A DNA stretch of 32,179 bases from Flavobacteriales bacterium BRH_c54 (GTDB taxonomy: Bacteria > Bacteroidota > Bacteroidia > Flavobacteriales_E > Vicingaceae): NCBI GenBank assembly GCA_000961845.1, contig LADZ01000015.1, positions 1 to 32,179 on the forward strand, in the 5' to 3' direction. Position 1 is the stretch's first letter; every line of letters begins with the position of its first letter. Positions 8,966-31,649 of the stretch are shown piece by piece. The position numbers and the translations under genes are program-made. A model generated the notes under the pieces. The model did not search any database. It saw only the letters and a list, made by a program, of their open reading frames with translations, and was not told where the DNA came from.

Positions 8966-9308
8966 CGAACGCACCACTATTACAATATTTAGCATTTTAT
9001 TTCCTAGCAATTTTGAGCCAAAGAAGCTAGAGACAGAATAAAAAAACCTTTTAAAAGATCCAACATTTGATAGAAATATTGATAAGAATGTTACTAAGAT
9101 TTTTGACATAGTTAAAGTTAGTGTAAAAGGTAAGACAATCGGAGACGAGAGAAGTTCCCTCTCCTTAGTCTGAAGGGAGGCAATGAGTGGTAGGGATTAA
9201 GGACTTATTTCTACCATAACTAAGATAATTCTTACTTTTGGTTTATGTCAGAAAGAGGATATAGGTATGATTGATTCATGCATATTAGTTAGCCACAAGA
9301 AAAAAACA
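8966..9308. other. Intergenic region with a possible decayed gene fragment
   Basis: No intact gene is seen. In the frame of base 8961 a protein-like stretch runs to a TGA at 9172-9174 but is broken by a TAA at 9039-9041. The part after that stop (KDPTFDRNIDKNVTKIFDIV and following) looks more coding than random and could be the C-terminus of a lost gene, which I cannot name. A short imperfect hairpin TCCCT/AGGGA follows near 9153-9178. A promoter element TACTTTTG lies at 9233-9240. Confidence 0.35.
9233..9240 (+). promoter_or_regulatory. Candidate -7 promoter element TACTTTTG
   Basis: This is an exact match to TAnnTTTG, about 70 bases before the preferred ATG of the DUF6544-type gene. No clear -33 TTTG is seen at the expected distance. 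Confidence 0.4.
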
Positions 9309-10433
9309 ATGCGAATAGCTTTAACCATATTGATTGGAATACATGGGATTATCCATTTATTTGGATTTTTCAAGGCATTTGGGATATCTGAATTTAATGC
9401 GATTTCACAACCAATTTCAAAAACTTATGGAATATGTTGGTTCTTGACATTTCTACTTTTTGTTATTACAATCATTTTAATACTTATTCATTCGGATTAT
9501 TGGTGGTTAAGTGGTTTTTTGGCTATGATTATTTCGCAAGTGTTGATTTTTAATTATTGGTCTGACGCAAAATTTGGTACAGTATTCAATGTAATTATTT
9601 TATTGGCGACAATTATTGGATATTCCAGTTTCAACTTTAACAATAAAATTAAAGGAGAAAGAATAAGTCTGTTTGAAAATTCGGCACTCAAAAATCAAGA
9701 GATTGTTACCGAAAAAGCATTGTTTTATTTACCACCAATTGTTCAAAAATGGTTGTCTAATAGCGGAATAATCGGAAAGAAATTCATTTCTAATGTGCAT
9801 TTAGTTCAAGAACTAAAGCTCAAAATGAATCTCGAACAAACAAGTTGGAACAATGGTACGGCAGAACAATATTTTACTATTCAACCGCCAGCGTTCAATT
9901 GGAATATTAATACTGAAATGAATTCAATATTGAGTGTAGTAGGTAGAGACAAATTTGAAGATGGTAAAGGCGAAATGATAATTAAACTTCTTTCACTTAT
10001 TCCGGTTGCAAATGCAAAAAATCACGAAAAGGTAAACCAAGCAACTTTACAACGATATCTGGCTGAAATCGTTTGGTTTCCTTCAGCTTCTTTAAGTCAA
10101 TACATAAAATGGGAGGCTATAGACGACTATTCTGCCAGAGCAACAATGGAATATAAAGGAACTAAAGGTTCAGGAGAATTTCATTTTGATAAAGAAGGAA
10201 ATTTTGAAAAATTCGTAGCAATGCGTTATCAGGATTCAAATGCAATCAAACCTACTAAATGGACTGTGATTTCAACAAGAACAGAAGAACGGAATGGAAT
10301 TAAAATACCTATTGAATGCGAAGCAAGTTGGGAAATGGAGAATGGTAAGTGGACTTGGTTAAAATTAAGAATAACGGACATTCAATACAACGTGAATAAA
10401 ATGCCAGTAGCTAACAATGTATATAAAAAATAG
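9309..10433 (+). CDS. DUF6544-type membrane protein
   Basis: The 374-residue protein has about four transmembrane helices in the first 110 residues (ALTILIGIHGIIHLFGFF, then ICWFLTFLLFVITIILILI, then two more). A soluble domain of about 250 residues follows, with the pattern L-P-P-I-V-Q-K-W-L near 137 and W-F-P-S-A near 260. This layout fits the DUF6544 family (formerly DUF6920), whose function is unknown. An in-frame ATG at 9267 would add 14 unrelated residues. The ATG at 9309 is preferred because it has A-rich upstream sequence and begins directly with the first helix. The gene stands alone between the decayed region and the shared terminator. Confidence 0.75.
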   Translation: MRIALTILIGIHGIIHLFGFFKAFGISEFNAISQPISKTYGICWFLTFLLFVITIILILIHSDYWWLSGFLAMIISQVLIFNYWSDAKFGTVFNVIILLATIIGYSSFNFNNKIKGERISLFENSALKNQEIVTEKALFYLPPIVQKWLSNSGIIGKKFISNVHLVQELKLKMNLEQTSWNNGTAEQYFTIQPPAFNWNINTEMNSILSVVGRDKFEDGKGEMIIKLLSLIPVANAKNHEKVNQATLQRYLAEIVWFPSASLSQYIKWEAIDDYSARATMEYKGTKGSGEFHFDKEGNFEKFVAMRYQDSNAIKPTKWTVISTRTEERNGIKIPIECEASWEMENGKWTWLKLRITDIQYNVNKMPVANNVYKK

Positions 10434-10495
10434 ACGAATGTTTGGCACTTCTAAATTGCCTACTTTTCATATACAAACCGCTACCCTACCTTCAT

Positions 10496-28433: not shown

Positions 28434-28461
28434 GTTCAAGGTTTGAAGTTTGAGGTTTTTA
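28434..28461. repeat. Degenerate heptamer repeat after elaA-type gene
   Basis: Four consecutive 7-base units, GTTCAAG, GTTTGAA, GTTTGAG and GTTTTTA, begin directly after the acetyltransferase stop codon and fill most of the gap to the convergent gene. Confidence 0.6.
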
Positions 28462-28467
28462 TAAGCG

Positions 28468-29187
28468 TCATTCAATTTCATCTCTTACTTGTTCTCTAGC
28501 TTGTTTTATAATTTTGCTATAATTTCTTCTAAATGGTTCACTTAATTGTCTTTCCAATAAAGCTTCTATATCCCATAATACTTTTTCTTCCGCTTGGTCT
28601 TCAAAAAGTTCTTTTTTATCACTTTCATTGAATCTGCTTAGGAATTCGAAAAGAACAAGGGCTTCATTTTTAGTCAATACGATATTCATTTGGTTGTTTT
28701 CTTTTTCCATTGTTCTGTCCTCGTTAATTGGTAACCATTTTCGATTAAATCTTTTTATTAATTCAGAGAATCTATTAGAATAGTCTTTTTTGTCGAAATT
28801 TACACAAACTATTTTAATATTATCATAGTCTGCTCTATCTGGTAGACAAGTTGCTCCATAATTTTCCCAGAAAGCATTTGCTAAATCGGTGTCATTACTA
28901 CCAGTTGTCATTATTTCAATTTCAGAATGTCCTTCATCAATTTCCATTTTTACCATTTCCATATCAAATGCATTGTGAAGATACTCTCCAAATAGTCCAA
29001 ACCCTTTAAATTCAAATAAGTCATTTTTAATTGAAGTTCTAATAAATTCAGAAAGAACTTTGTCGTCAGGTTTTTCATTAGCAATTGCAAAACATATCCA
29101 ATTCGATATAGGTAGCTTATCTTTAAAATCATCTGCGATTTCAAGATAAAATGTTTCTCGGTTCATATGTTGTCCTAAATGCTTCAT
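28468..29187 (-). CDS. Hypothetical two-part protein, 239 residues
   Basis: I do not recognise a named family with confidence. Residues 1-155 form one globular part (F-K-G-F-G-L-F-G-E-Y-L-H near 60, then D-Y-S-N-R-F-S-E-L-I-K-R-F-N near 136). An acidic linker (M-E-K-E-N-N-Q-M) leads to a C-terminal helical domain of about 70 residues, with L-T-K-N-E-A-L-V-L-F-E-F-L-S-R-F near 172. That C-terminal domain resembles a stand-alone small bacterial protein I have seen as a hypothetical, so this may be a fusion. It is cytoplasmic by composition. The ATG at 29187 has A-rich upstream sequence; 29166 is an alternative. It follows repeat element 1. Confidence 0.7.
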   Translation of the reverse strand: MKHLGQHMNRETFYLEIADDFKDKLPISNWICFAIANEKPDDKVLSEFIRTSIKNDLFEFKGFGLFGEYLHNAFDMEMVKMEIDEGHSEIEIMTTGSNDTDLANAFWENYGATCLPDRADYDNIKIVCVNFDKKDYSNRFSELIKRFNRKWLPINEDRTMEKENNQMNIVLTKNEALVLFEFLSRFNESDKKELFEDQAEEKVLWDIEALLERQLSEPFRRNYSKIIKQAREQVRDEIE

Positions 29188-29201
29188 TTTTTCTTTCTAT
29201 G

Positions 29202-29279
29202 GCACACAACGGTTTGCAGCTTATTTTTTTCTAGCTTAATTTGTTTTTTATCATAGAATGCGGCAGCGGTGGGGAGTGC
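29202..29279. repeat. Cassette-like intergenic element 1
   Basis: A 78-base gap element bounded by GCAC (29202-29205) and GTGC (29276-29279). Its left arm GCACACAACGGTTTGC resembles the arm GCACCACAACGTTTC of element 2. Its right end, GGCAGCGGTGGGGAGTGCG before a T-run, resembles TTGGCGGTATGTGC before a T-run in element 2. It separates the CoiA-like gene from the 239-residue gene. Confidence 0.5.
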
Positions 29280-29290
29280 GTTTTTCATTT

Positions 29291-30070
29291 TTAAAATCGT
29301 CTTCTTCTAATCGTTTTTCGTGTTTGACAATTAAGTAAATTATTTACAGACCTATTTGAAATGCTTCGTTTATATTCAAGTATTATATTTTGAATATTTG
29401 GTATCAACTTGTAAACCAATTCATCGAATCCATTATTATTATGAACAGTAACAAATTCTTCCCGAGAGAAACGAATTAGGTAAGCCTCTTCTTTGATGTT
29501 TAAAGGAAGTAGAAACCATAGAGTTGATTTATTAAGTTCGTAAAAATCAAAAAAGACAGGAACTCCGCAATTCAGCCATTCTTTTAAAAGTCGAGATTCT
29601 TCTGGGAAGTTTACCTGTCGGATATTTACGTTTCCAACAGGTGCTCTTGAACTTTCTTCCAAAACTTTTTGAAATTGTACTTTATCAGTTTTTCTTCTTA
29701 ATCCATTTATAACCCAAACCAATTTTGAGTAAAATTTGTTTCTAGAATTGCGTTCTTCAGGATTAATAAACGAATGTTGAAATTCTAAGACCCAATCTTT
29801 ATCTGTTTTTATGTCTGCAATATGTTTCTCTCCTCTTCTATCAAAATGTACTATTTCTTGCCATTCTTTTGGGAAATGGTTTTTCCATTGTCTATGCCAT
29901 TCAGTTTCGTTTTCCCACCAAATGTCACAATTTCGAGTTCCTTTATGTGCCCAATGATTTATATTGACTTCACCGCATTTAGCTATTAACTCTGAACCAC
30001 AACTAGGGCAGATGCCTTTAACTCCTTTTACAGCTTCAATTTTATTTCCATTGACCAAAGCATATTTCAT
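29291..30070 (-). CDS. CoiA-like nuclease-domain protein
   Basis: The 259-residue protein has an N-terminal zinc-ribbon-like part (C21-P-S-C24, H39-x2-H42, C48) and then a predicted PD-(D/E)xK-type nuclease core. The core has I-A-D86-I-K and V-L-E96-F-Q98-H, followed by N-K-F-Y-S-K-L-V-W-V-I-N-G, the pattern of competence protein CoiA-family proteins. A less conserved C-terminal half and a basic tail (R-K-T-I-R-R-R-R-F) follow. In Gram-positive bacteria CoiA acts in transformation; in Bacteroidota such genes occur singly in accessory DNA and their role is open. ATG at 30070 is chosen over a TTG six bases upstream. It follows the small membrane-protein gene by 12 bases. Confidence 0.75.
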   Translation of the reverse strand: MKYALVNGNKIEAVKGVKGICPSCGSELIAKCGEVNINHWAHKGTRNCDIWWENETEWHRQWKNHFPKEWQEIVHFDRRGEKHIADIKTDKDWVLEFQHSFINPEERNSRNKFYSKLVWVINGLRRKTDKVQFQKVLEESSRAPVGNVNIRQVNFPEESRLLKEWLNCGVPVFFDFYELNKSTLWFLLPLNIKEEAYLIRFSREEFVTVHNNNGFDELVYKLIPNIQNIILEYKRSISNRSVNNLLNCQTRKTIRRRRF

Positions 30071-30082
30071 TGACAAATGATT

Positions 30083-30280
30083 TTAATTTTTCTTTTTAAT
30101 TGGAGCTAATAAAAGGTAAAATATCCAAGCAAACCAAGAGATAAAAAGTACAGCGAGAATCCAAGCAAATTTTTCGCTCCCCGTGGTTTTTCTAGAAAAT
30201 AAGATTGACATTAATGGTATTAGCCAAACAAAGCCAATAGCAATTAATATTAATAAAATAGCTCCTGACGAATCTTCCAT
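30083..30280 (-). CDS. Small two-helix membrane protein, PLDc_N-like
   Basis: The 65-residue protein has two hydrophobic helices (about 7-27 and 38-59) joined by a short basic loop (S-R-K-T-T-G-S-E-K), with a lysine tail. The first helix ends P-L-M-S-I-L and the second carries W-F-A-W-I-F-Y-L-L-L. This resembles the phospholipase D N-terminal-like (PLDc_N) and superinfection-immunity small membrane families, though no catalytic domain follows. It is probably an inner-membrane protein of unknown role. It is 12 bases upstream of the CoiA-like ATG, so the two form a unit between repeat elements 2 and 1. Confidence 0.65.
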   Translation of the reverse strand: MEDSSGAILLILIAIGFVWLIPLMSILFSRKTTGSEKFAWILAVLFISWFAWIFYLLLAPIKKKN

Positions 30281-30344
30281 TTTATATTCTACTTTTTGAT
30301 TCTATGTTTGTTCTGTGTCTTTATCACCGTGGTTGTTTTTAAAT

Positions 30345-30383
30345 GCACCACAACGTTTCTTAGCTGCTGTTGGCGGTATGTGC
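30345..30383. repeat. Cassette-like intergenic element 2
   Basis: A 39-base element. On the minus strand it starts GCACATACCGCCAAC and ends GTTGTGGTGC, so GCAC pairs with GTGC and CAAC with GTTG around a short centre. Two paired boxes separated by unequal spacers recall the architecture of integron attC sites, although the standard attC core sequences are not matched. Confidence 0.55.
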
Positions 30384-30396
30384 TTTTTCTTATTCA

Positions 30397-30699
30397 TTAA
30401 AACATTACTCTAGCAATGTCGTCAAATTTTGTTACTGTAATATGTCCTGAGTCCATGAGCTTTTGTTCACCATTTTCTCCTTCACTAATTTTTTTTAGTT
30501 CTTCAGCACGTTTTTTTTCTTCTTCATTCATGTTTGGTTTCCACATTTCTCTAAGTCCTTTGCCTGTATAGTAAACTACTTCATTGTCTGTAACCCTGAT
30601 TACTCCATAGTTAACAGTTCTGCCGTCTTTCAATTGCATTGCTCCTGCATGATTGAAACGTAGCAACTCAAATCCTTGTATATTATTTTTATCACTCAT
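30397..30699 (-). CDS. Hypothetical protein, 100 residues
   Basis: I do not recognise the family. The N-terminal half is predicted beta-rich (L-K-D-G-R-T-V-N-Y-G-V-I-R-V, then N-E-V-V-Y-Y-T-G-K-G). A charged helix follows (N-E-E-E-K-K-R-A-E-E-L-K-K, about 57-70), then a final strand pair ending I-A-R-V-M-F. There is no signal peptide or membrane helix. Its ATG overlaps the stop of the upstream membrane protein gene (ATGA), so the two are coupled and may function together. Confidence 0.7.
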   Translation of the reverse strand: MSDKNNIQGFELLRFNHAGAMQLKDGRTVNYGVIRVTDNEVVYYTGKGLREMWKPNMNEEEKKRAEELKKISEGENGEQKLMDSGHITVTKFDDIARVMF

Positions 30700-31412
30700 T
30701 TTTTAATTGTGTCAGTTTTAACGTTAACTACGGTTGAAGTAGTTTTTATTACTGTGATTGTGTCCATTATTGTTGTCGTGTCAGACTGAACATTTGAACT
30801 CATTTTGCTATTCTTAAAGCCTGATTTGATAGGGTCGCTTGTTTTCTCCTTTTTTTGTCGGTCAACGATATTGATTATGTTGAACGCAACATTTAAAACC
30901 AATGCTACAATTGCAACCAATAATGCATTTCTTGTTGTCCGCCATTGTCTGTTTGCCCTAACTTCTTCTCTTGTTAAAAAACCGTCTGAAATAAACTTGT
31001 CAAGTTCGGGTGTAACGAAAATTTCTCTAATCGAGTACTCGCAAAACATCTTTGATAGGCGAGGGTCAGGAAAATGGTAAGGAATTGACGGAACATTTAC
31101 AGCTGCTTGTCCAAAAGTAAAAGGGTTTGGAGGTAACTGATTAGCATTTATAAATGTGAATATGTATCCATTATCTTCAAATAGCTTTATTAGATTTACG
31201 GCTTGAATTACGATTGTTTGTATTTCTTCTAATCGGTCTATTAGATTGAGTTCTGGATTTGCTTCAAAAATGAAGTCGACACTTTCGGTCTGCGTATTAA
31301 CCTGAAAACTGACACCATTTATCCAAGGGTCAATAAGACTATAAAGGTTTCGCCCTTGCCCGTCCCTTATACGTCTCAATAATATTTGTTCGTCTTCTGT
31401 AAATACTCTCAT
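30696..31412 (-). CDS. Hypothetical single-span membrane protein, 238 residues
   Basis: I do not recognise the family. About 155 soluble residues (F-T-E-D-E-Q-I-L-L-R-R-I at the start, N-Q-L-P-P-N-P-F-T-F near 110) lead to a helix-rich juxtamembrane part (L-T-R-E-E-V-R-A-N-R-Q-W-R-T-T). One transmembrane helix is near 163-181 (A-L-L-V-A-I-V-A-L-V-L-N-V-A-F). The C-terminal tail of about 55 residues is Ser/Thr/Val/Lys-rich and of low complexity. The positive R-Q-W-R-T-T-R-N before the helix suggests that the N-terminal domain is cytoplasmic. It is coupled to the 100-residue gene by an ATGA overlap and lies after repeat element 3. Confidence 0.7.
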   Translation of the reverse strand: MRVFTEDEQILLRRIRDGQGRNLYSLIDPWINGVSFQVNTQTESVDFIFEANPELNLIDRLEEIQTIVIQAVNLIKLFEDNGYIFTFINANQLPPNPFTFGQAAVNVPSIPYHFPDPRLSKMFCEYSIREIFVTPELDKFISDGFLTREEVRANRQWRTTRNALLVAIVALVLNVAFNIINIVDRQKKEKTSDPIKSGFKNSKMSSNVQSDTTTIMDTITVIKTTSTVVNVKTDTIKK

Positions 31413-31437
31413 CTAATTCTATGATAGTCGTTTTCTT

Positions 31438-31478
31438 GCATTACCGACAACTTGTATATATATACCTTTTAGGTGTGC
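31438..31478. repeat. Cassette-like intergenic element 3
   Basis: A 41-base element. Its plus-strand left arm GCATTACCGACAAC closely matches the minus-strand arm GCACATACCGCCAAC of element 2. It ends in AGGTGTGC and contains the palindrome GTATATATATAC (31454-31465), also present at 6874-6885. It marks the upstream edge of the accessory block. Confidence 0.5.
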
Positions 31479-31649
31479 TTATATTTCCCTCAAACATACA
31501 AAAAATAGTTTATAAATCAATTAGCTGTTAGTGTTTTATATTTCTATTTTAACTTCGTTGAACTCGCAAATTCATTTGAGGTTTTCTTAAACGTTATCCA
31601 AGATAGAAATCATCAAATTAAAAAATAAGAAAACGTAAAAGAAAATAAG

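Follow-up and report, generated by a model that had tools for sequence, protein, structure and literature searches.

The block of five same-strand genes found between an elaA-type gene and rplM in the window (the whole analysed stretch of 32,179 nucleotides from Flavobacteriales bacterium BRH_c54) is very probably a small cassette array, in part decayed, that belongs to an integron-like gene-capture system of the Bacteroidota. Its organization fits that of three gene cassettes combined with two attC-like sites (elements 2 and 1) and with element 3 as an orphan attI-like site (Table 1), and the system to which it belongs would be a variant of the integron, expected to work as integrons do but provided with a recombinase that falls below the cut-off of the integron integrases (IntI).

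Table 1. Features of the inserted block, in the order in which they are read on the minus strand, and of the lone site elsewhere in the window
Feature	Positions	Strand	Remarks
Whole inserted block	28456..31549 (edges approximate)	-	Between the elaA-type gene and rplM; flanks joined without the block in same-genus genome G404
Probable remnant of recombinase 3' end	31499..31549	-	Precedes the attI-like site (orphan attI)
TATGTTTG box (TAnnTTTG), candidate cassette promoter	31491..31498	-	49 nt before the crossover GTT
Element 3, attI-like site	31438..31478	-	Reads GCACACCTAAAAGGTATATATATACAA/GTTGTCGGTAATGC; resembles the recombinase-adjacent attI of the same genome (contig C28) and of G422
Cassette 1, gene 1 (238 aa)	30696..31412	-	No Pfam family above cut-off
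Cassette 1, gene 2 (100 aa)	30397..30699	-	No Pfam family
Element 2, shortened attC-like site	30343..30383	-	TACCGCCAAC-AGCAGCTAAGAAAC-GTTGTGGTGCAT; left arm complementary to the cassette 1 start
Cassette 2, gene 1 (65 aa), PLDc_N-like membrane protein	30083..30280	-	PF13396
Cassette 2, gene 2 (259 aa), CoiA-like protein	29291..30070	-	PF25164 CoiA_N
Element 1, degenerate attC-like site	29199..29280	-	Right end GCTGCAAACC-GTTGTGTGCCAT intact; left AAC gone
Cassette 3, orphan protein (239 aa)	28468..29187	-	No closing attC
Lone attC-like site	10406..10486	+	Overlaps the 3' end of a 388-aa gene (9267-10433); R1 match 10412-10481, 36 bits, E 1.7e-4

The block is an insertion: ~3.1 kb are missing from the elaA-rplM site of the same-genus genome G404, where rplM is 99% identical to that of the window and the two flanks meet save for a short, poorly aligning stretch. 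On the minus strand the order is element 3, the genes for 238 and 100 residues, element 2, those for 65 and 259 residues, element 1 and the gene for 239 residues, past which the elaA-type gene lies on the opposite strand; genes, units, orientations and element strings are all present as given in the preliminary description of this DNA. The start codons of the three units are located 39, 74 and 23 nt past a GTT and the right end of each of the three elements reads GTT-G-N6-AT, which is the rule of the whole site family described below. In the Membranihabitans and RXS2 loci, too, a CoiA-like gene is preceded by a small gene similar to that of the PLDc_N-like protein. The gene of cassette 3 has no match in the same-genus genomes G404 and G415, and its homologs in G347 and G515 sit between sites having 7-nt matched arms. 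The block matches no Rfam family and its five genes match none of the defence-family models; a Pfam match of the 238-aa protein to INV_N, being below cut-off, was disregarded.

The arms of the window elements acquire a meaning when they are assigned to cassettes. The left arm of element 2 (TACCGCCAAC) constitutes the end of cassette 1 and the right arm of element 3 (GTTGTCGGTA) its start; the match between these two elements, already noticed in the preliminary description, is therefore that between the two ends of a single cassette, which are complementary at 9 of 10 positions, a result equalled in 7 of 2000 cases when the gaps were dinucleotide-shuffled. The match reported between elements 1 and 2 is likewise real, but the strings concerned (GTTGTGGTGC and GTTGTGTGCC) are both cassette starts and do not pair with each other. 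The arms of cassette 2 are complementary at only 6 of 10 positions because element 1 is degenerate, and with 105 of 2000 shuffles as good this match is not significant. When folded together with the start of its own cassette, element 2 yields a z of -2.7 for the bottom strand. As to the attC-like folds that had been attributed to all three elements, the attribution holds for elements 2 and 1, both degenerate, and not for element 3, which is attI-like. The array is read as decayed since the covariance model of the site family (R1, see below) scores none of the window elements above noise level, element 2 is devoid of a hairpin body, element 1 of its AAC and cassette 3 of a closing site, which was sought near position 28440 and not found; for the same reasons the assignment of the block leans on its context, and the case is built on relatives, the window's own sites being degenerate. 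Taken by themselves the window elements are weak evidence; it is the empty site in a relative, the attI-like flank and the presence, in clear cassette arrays elsewhere, of relatives of two of the gene units that lift them above chance.

No recombinase gene stands beside the window array. The attI-like flank resembles the end of such a gene. A 112-nt region of the window, which includes the probable recombinase remnant of Table 1, aligns to the recombinase 3' end plus attI of the same-genus genome G422 with a score of 56, reached by none of 300 shuffles, and to the corresponding region of the same genome's own contig C28, whose recombinase-adjacent attI ends in CATATATAAACAA/GTT, with a score of 48, reached by 4 of 300. 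Alignments of this region with other attI regions are not significant, so that the reading of element 3 as an orphan copy of attI accompanied by the remnant of a recombinase end, which the sequence suggests, is offered with moderate confidence. In genome G423 (contig C1, loci L197 and L198) C-terminal recombinase fragments followed by attI occur as orphan entry sites at chromosomal positions without a full recombinase gene.

When the CoiA-like protein of the window was used as query, relatives 41-80% identical to it were returned from bacteria that are only very distantly related. In Wenyingzhuangia gilva (L095) one such relative is a unit of an array in which a 189-nt element recurs eight times at a spacing of 713-1078 bp, and a comparable array with elements of 124-127 nt is present in Oceanihabitans (L097); in Wenyingzhuangia, Oceanihabitans, Labilibaculum and HGW-Bacteroidetes-16 the CoiA relatives are either cassettes or lie directly behind a site, which in the latter two is immediately upstream of the gene. 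In these relatives cassettes, mostly of one gene, alternate with hairpin sites of 120-190 nt having the form AC-N7-AAC-ANN-stem ... stem-N5/6-GTT-N7-AT. The bases following GTT are complementary to those in front of the AAC in the next element and not to those in their own, from which it follows that the arms belong to the cassette, as they do in the attC sites of integrons. Thalassolituus marinus (L096), whose genome contains two true IntI genes, has a partial CoiA-like relative that shares 77% identity with the window protein across 111 residues.

The family was defined by the covariance model R1, constructed from 14 element bodies of the relatives rather than from the window elements, the arms being left out to avoid circularity in the arm test; RNAalifold predicts 13 base pairs for these 14 elements, 11 of which are changed on both sides. 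The model identified 176 sites in 36 sources, and 127 intervals between consecutive sites on the same strand were available for the arm test, with exact complementarity of at least 6 nt as the threshold. Complementarity of 6-7 nt between the arms of the same cassette is found in 97 of these intervals, as against 0.9% for mismatched cassettes and 2.5% within one element; the 30 intervals without matching arms represent missed sites, decay or insertions. At 155 of 160 sites GTT is followed by a purine, at 161 of 164 AAC is preceded by a pyrimidine and at 152 of 160 position +8 is occupied by A; positions +2 to +4 have mixed bases, so that the strict RYYYAAC and GTTRRRY boxes are not found. Intervals have a median of 736 bp, the longest reading frame follows the direction of the array in 66 of 78 cases and, when the circular form is folded, the bottom strand is the more stable in 76 of 78 sites (p 4e-14), use of the bottom strand being the rule for attC sites (PMC8946536). 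Searches with short patterns of the GTTGGCGGTA type gave 25 matches in the window's own genome compared to 18 in the reversed control and were near chance level across the phylum as well, because the arms are cassette-specific; they were abandoned. The cassette array in a plasmid of Chryseobacterium sp. SNU WT5 (L253, 13290-17686) includes both an IS110 transposase and the gene of a group II intron maturase.

R1 recognizes 16 sites in the genome to which the window belongs, 15, 24 and 9 in three others of its genus, 36 in Wenyingzhuangia and 51 in Oceanihabitans; at E <= 0.001 (the E-values being rough) 73 of 99 Bacteroidia genomes have matches, and a single weak match (E 0.08) was obtained among 15 genomes from outside the phylum. 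The covariance-model search proposed in the preliminary description has therefore succeeded across the Bacteroidia with a model made from relatives; the anticipated variability of gene content between elements is likewise borne out, since the genes differ among relatives both at the locus and behind attI.

The entry site is located between the stop codon of a recombinase gene and the first cassette, with the recombinase just upstream and transcribed in the same direction as the cassettes. This attI ends in TATAAACAA/GTT or, in a second subfamily, in a near-perfect palindrome such as AATAAACGTACCGGTACGTTTATTCGGTT/GTT. In G324 and G409 (L156 and L157), which belong to different genera, recombinase and attI are 100% identical over 1,203 bp up to the GTT and the sequences are unrelated beyond it; a like junction pattern, at 95% identity, is displayed by plasmids of Chryseobacterium oryzae and Chryseobacterium sp. 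SNU WT5. In 7 recombinase-linked loci the first cassette has arms that match perfectly over 6 nt within 1.5 kb, and in each case none of the 22-24 control starts is as good. A TAnnTTTG box, the promoter type of the Bacteroidota, occurs in 19 of 27 recombinase loci at a distance of no more than 170 nt upstream of attI, against an expectation of 2.3, and in one subfamily falls inside the last recombinase codons. In L152, L154, L156, L157, L180 and L181 the first cassettes often open, directly after attI, with a related leader resembling AAAGCCAACCGCACAAACAGCACATTTGGTTTTTGCC.

A dedicated tyrosine recombinase, for which the preliminary description proposed to look, adjoins the entry site and is also present in the window's own genome, where it consists of 379 aa (G000:C28:256-1392). 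When the integron-integrase family TIGR02249 (cut-off 265 bits) was run on seven Bacteroidota genomes having sites or CoiA relatives, including the window's own (G000), no IntI exceeded the cut-off in any of them, whereas true IntI did so in 4 of 8 other genomes; matches below the cut-off arise in control genomes too, through Xer. In six of the seven genomes the best match is a longer recombinase, of 379-602 aa, which skips profile positions ~179-236 and for which TIGR02249 is the best or second-best matching family. Catalytic residues are kept in 20 members, and the catalytic lysine and the HxxR motif are 64-65 aa apart, as opposed to 106 in the true IntI in which this could be measured. These enzymes are related to IntI, without the ~41-aa IntI insertion and with an N-terminal extension; some (L116, L117, L181) reach 574-602 aa with apparent repeats of the extension module. 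A HARP-like domain was considered for the N-terminus following one weak match (E 0.0036, L116) and dropped when a scan of 20 members gave no support. Full-length recombinase matches, next to attI, exist in ~27 of 46 family genomes, the contig often ending just past the 3' end of the gene, on the attI side, and several recombinase loci stop short of a first attC. Related recombinases are found also in phages, so that a recombinase match alone is no proof of an array; among solved structures, XerA and an archaeal XerC-like protein come closest in sequence.

Phylogenetic trees place these recombinases, IntI, the phage simple recombinases and a tet(X3)-linked protein on one side and XerC/XerD on the other, with split support of 100/100 without the phage rows and 96/89 with them, one phage row then falling on the Xer side. 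IntI is monophyletic and groups with the Bacteroidota rows L117 and L181 (88/57, rising to 91/90 once phage rows are added); as the trees leave out XerA and XerH, this nesting is a lead and not a result. The tet(X3)-linked protein, of 221 aa, is ~50% identical over its length to these recombinases. In an Acinetobacter baylyi plasmid (L255, NZ_CP104735.1, 2552-4573) the "xerD" beside tet(X3) is an N-terminally truncated member of the lineage, an attI-like palindrome ending in AGCCACTT/GTTATGTGCCAT lies between the two genes and an attC-like left end with a mismatched arm is present past tet(X3). The xerD-tet(X3) arrangement was already known (PMC7494873).

The following mechanism can be envisaged. 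The recombinase encoded just upstream of attI would act on both attI and the hairpin sites in which cassettes of one or two genes end. Upon excision, a cassette would become circular and hold both of its own arms, so that the site could fold as a single strand, presumably with the bottom strand favored; the recombinase would then join the folded site to attI, or to another site, at the GTT, and such an insertion would leave the start and end arms of the cassette at opposite ends. Expression of the first cassettes may be driven from the promoter-like box ahead of attI. In the window, an orphan attI copy with its recombinase-end remnant would have come to lie between elaA and rplM, holding three cassettes.

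Other explanations have to be weighed against this one. It is unlikely that the window contains a canonical integron array or a CALIN with ordinary attC sites of an IntI-type integron whose integrase has perhaps been lost. The cassette logic, the YAAC..GTTR ends and the bottom-strand bias are indeed shared, and TIGR02249 ranks first or second among the families matched; however, the absence of IntI above cut-off from the seven Bacteroidota genomes, as compared to its presence in 4 of 8 others, the 64-65 aa from K to H instead of 106, the co-orientation of integrase and cassettes and the variability of the arms beyond GTTRRRY all argue against it. Hairpin shape, high copy number per genome and contig breaks could also be accounted for by non-autonomous repeats (MITE, REP or IS200/IS605-type hairpins) scattered among horizontally acquired genes in the absence of any cassette recombination, an explanation which the arm test contradicts and to which we assign very little probability, since arm complementarity spanning a whole gene (97/127) is unexpected of self-transposing repeats and the junctions are placed exactly at GTT beside a tyrosine recombinase.

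For the window only, there is a small but not negligible probability that the block is an ordinary genomic island in which three gaps resemble sites by chance, as would befit the failure of R1 to score any window element and the non-significant arms of cassette 2. Against it stand the arms of cassette 1 (7/2000 shuffles), GTT-R-N6-AT in all three gaps, the attI-like flank with its promoter-like box, the fact that CoiA-like and 239-aa relatives are cassettes elsewhere and the absence of the block from a same-genus genome. A decayed array of the integron-like system remains the preferred reading.

Integrons are regarded as rare in the Bacteroidota. If the system is active, most Bacteroidia carry, or once carried, an integron-like gene-capture platform, which would account for many patchy orphan genes and for fragmented assemblies and would imply that an integrase can use folded sites without the IntI insertion. 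The grouping of IntI with two Bacteroidota members of the lineage makes the origin of integrons testable, and the affiliation of the tet(X3)-adjacent xerD bears on the first mobilization of that resistance gene. More speculatively, and with the odds rather against it, the system might represent a second major integron branch, present in most Bacteroidia, with a recombinase form predating the IntI insertion and the hairpins recognized by another part of the protein, perhaps the N-terminal extension; canonical IntI would then have its origin inside this branch, and tet(X) would have reached the Gammaproteobacteria as one of the cassettes of the branch.

Current integron surveys appear not to recognize the system: in the IntegronFinder 2.0 paper only integrase-only elements are given as known earlier from the Bacteroidetes, with one complete integron in the Bacteroidetes proper, in Salinibacter, and none of the 11 taxon-specific attC models published by Ghaly et al. 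is for the Bacteroidota. No description of the system was found in the open-access literature that was searched. The preliminary suggestion of an undescribed Bacteroidota gene-cassette system was right as to cassettes, while "undescribed" holds for the open-access literature searched and the system is best seen as close to integrons, a variant of them.

Among known systems, the xerD-tet(X3) element has a recombinase of the same lineage, albeit N-terminally truncated, and the phage simple tyrosine recombinases belong to this lineage as well but are without a visible array. The Xer/dif systems (XerC/XerD and archaeal XerA) share the catalytic fold and residues; unlike XerC/D, from which it is separated in the trees, the Bacteroidota recombinase would, to judge from its context, have arrays rather than a single dif site as its substrate. 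The closest resemblance is to integrons and CALINs, with which the system has in common the order integrase-attI-cassettes, cassettes that mostly hold one gene, sites forming imperfect hairpins, complementary ends that are specific to each cassette and of the YAAC/GTTR type, a GTT crossover, better folding of the bottom strand and a promoter-like box ahead of the array. It differs from them in that its recombinase is below the IntI cut-off, lacks the ~41-aa insertion, is extended N-terminally and is co-oriented with the cassettes, in that one attI subfamily is a near-perfect palindrome and in that the arms vary over 6-7 nt. The complementary R''/R' ends and imperfect hairpin by which attC is defined are found in the relatives, and only in degenerate form in the window. 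An attI beside the integrase, as the place where cassettes enter, is seen in the recombinase gene plus attI that are identical up to the GTT and followed by differing cassettes.
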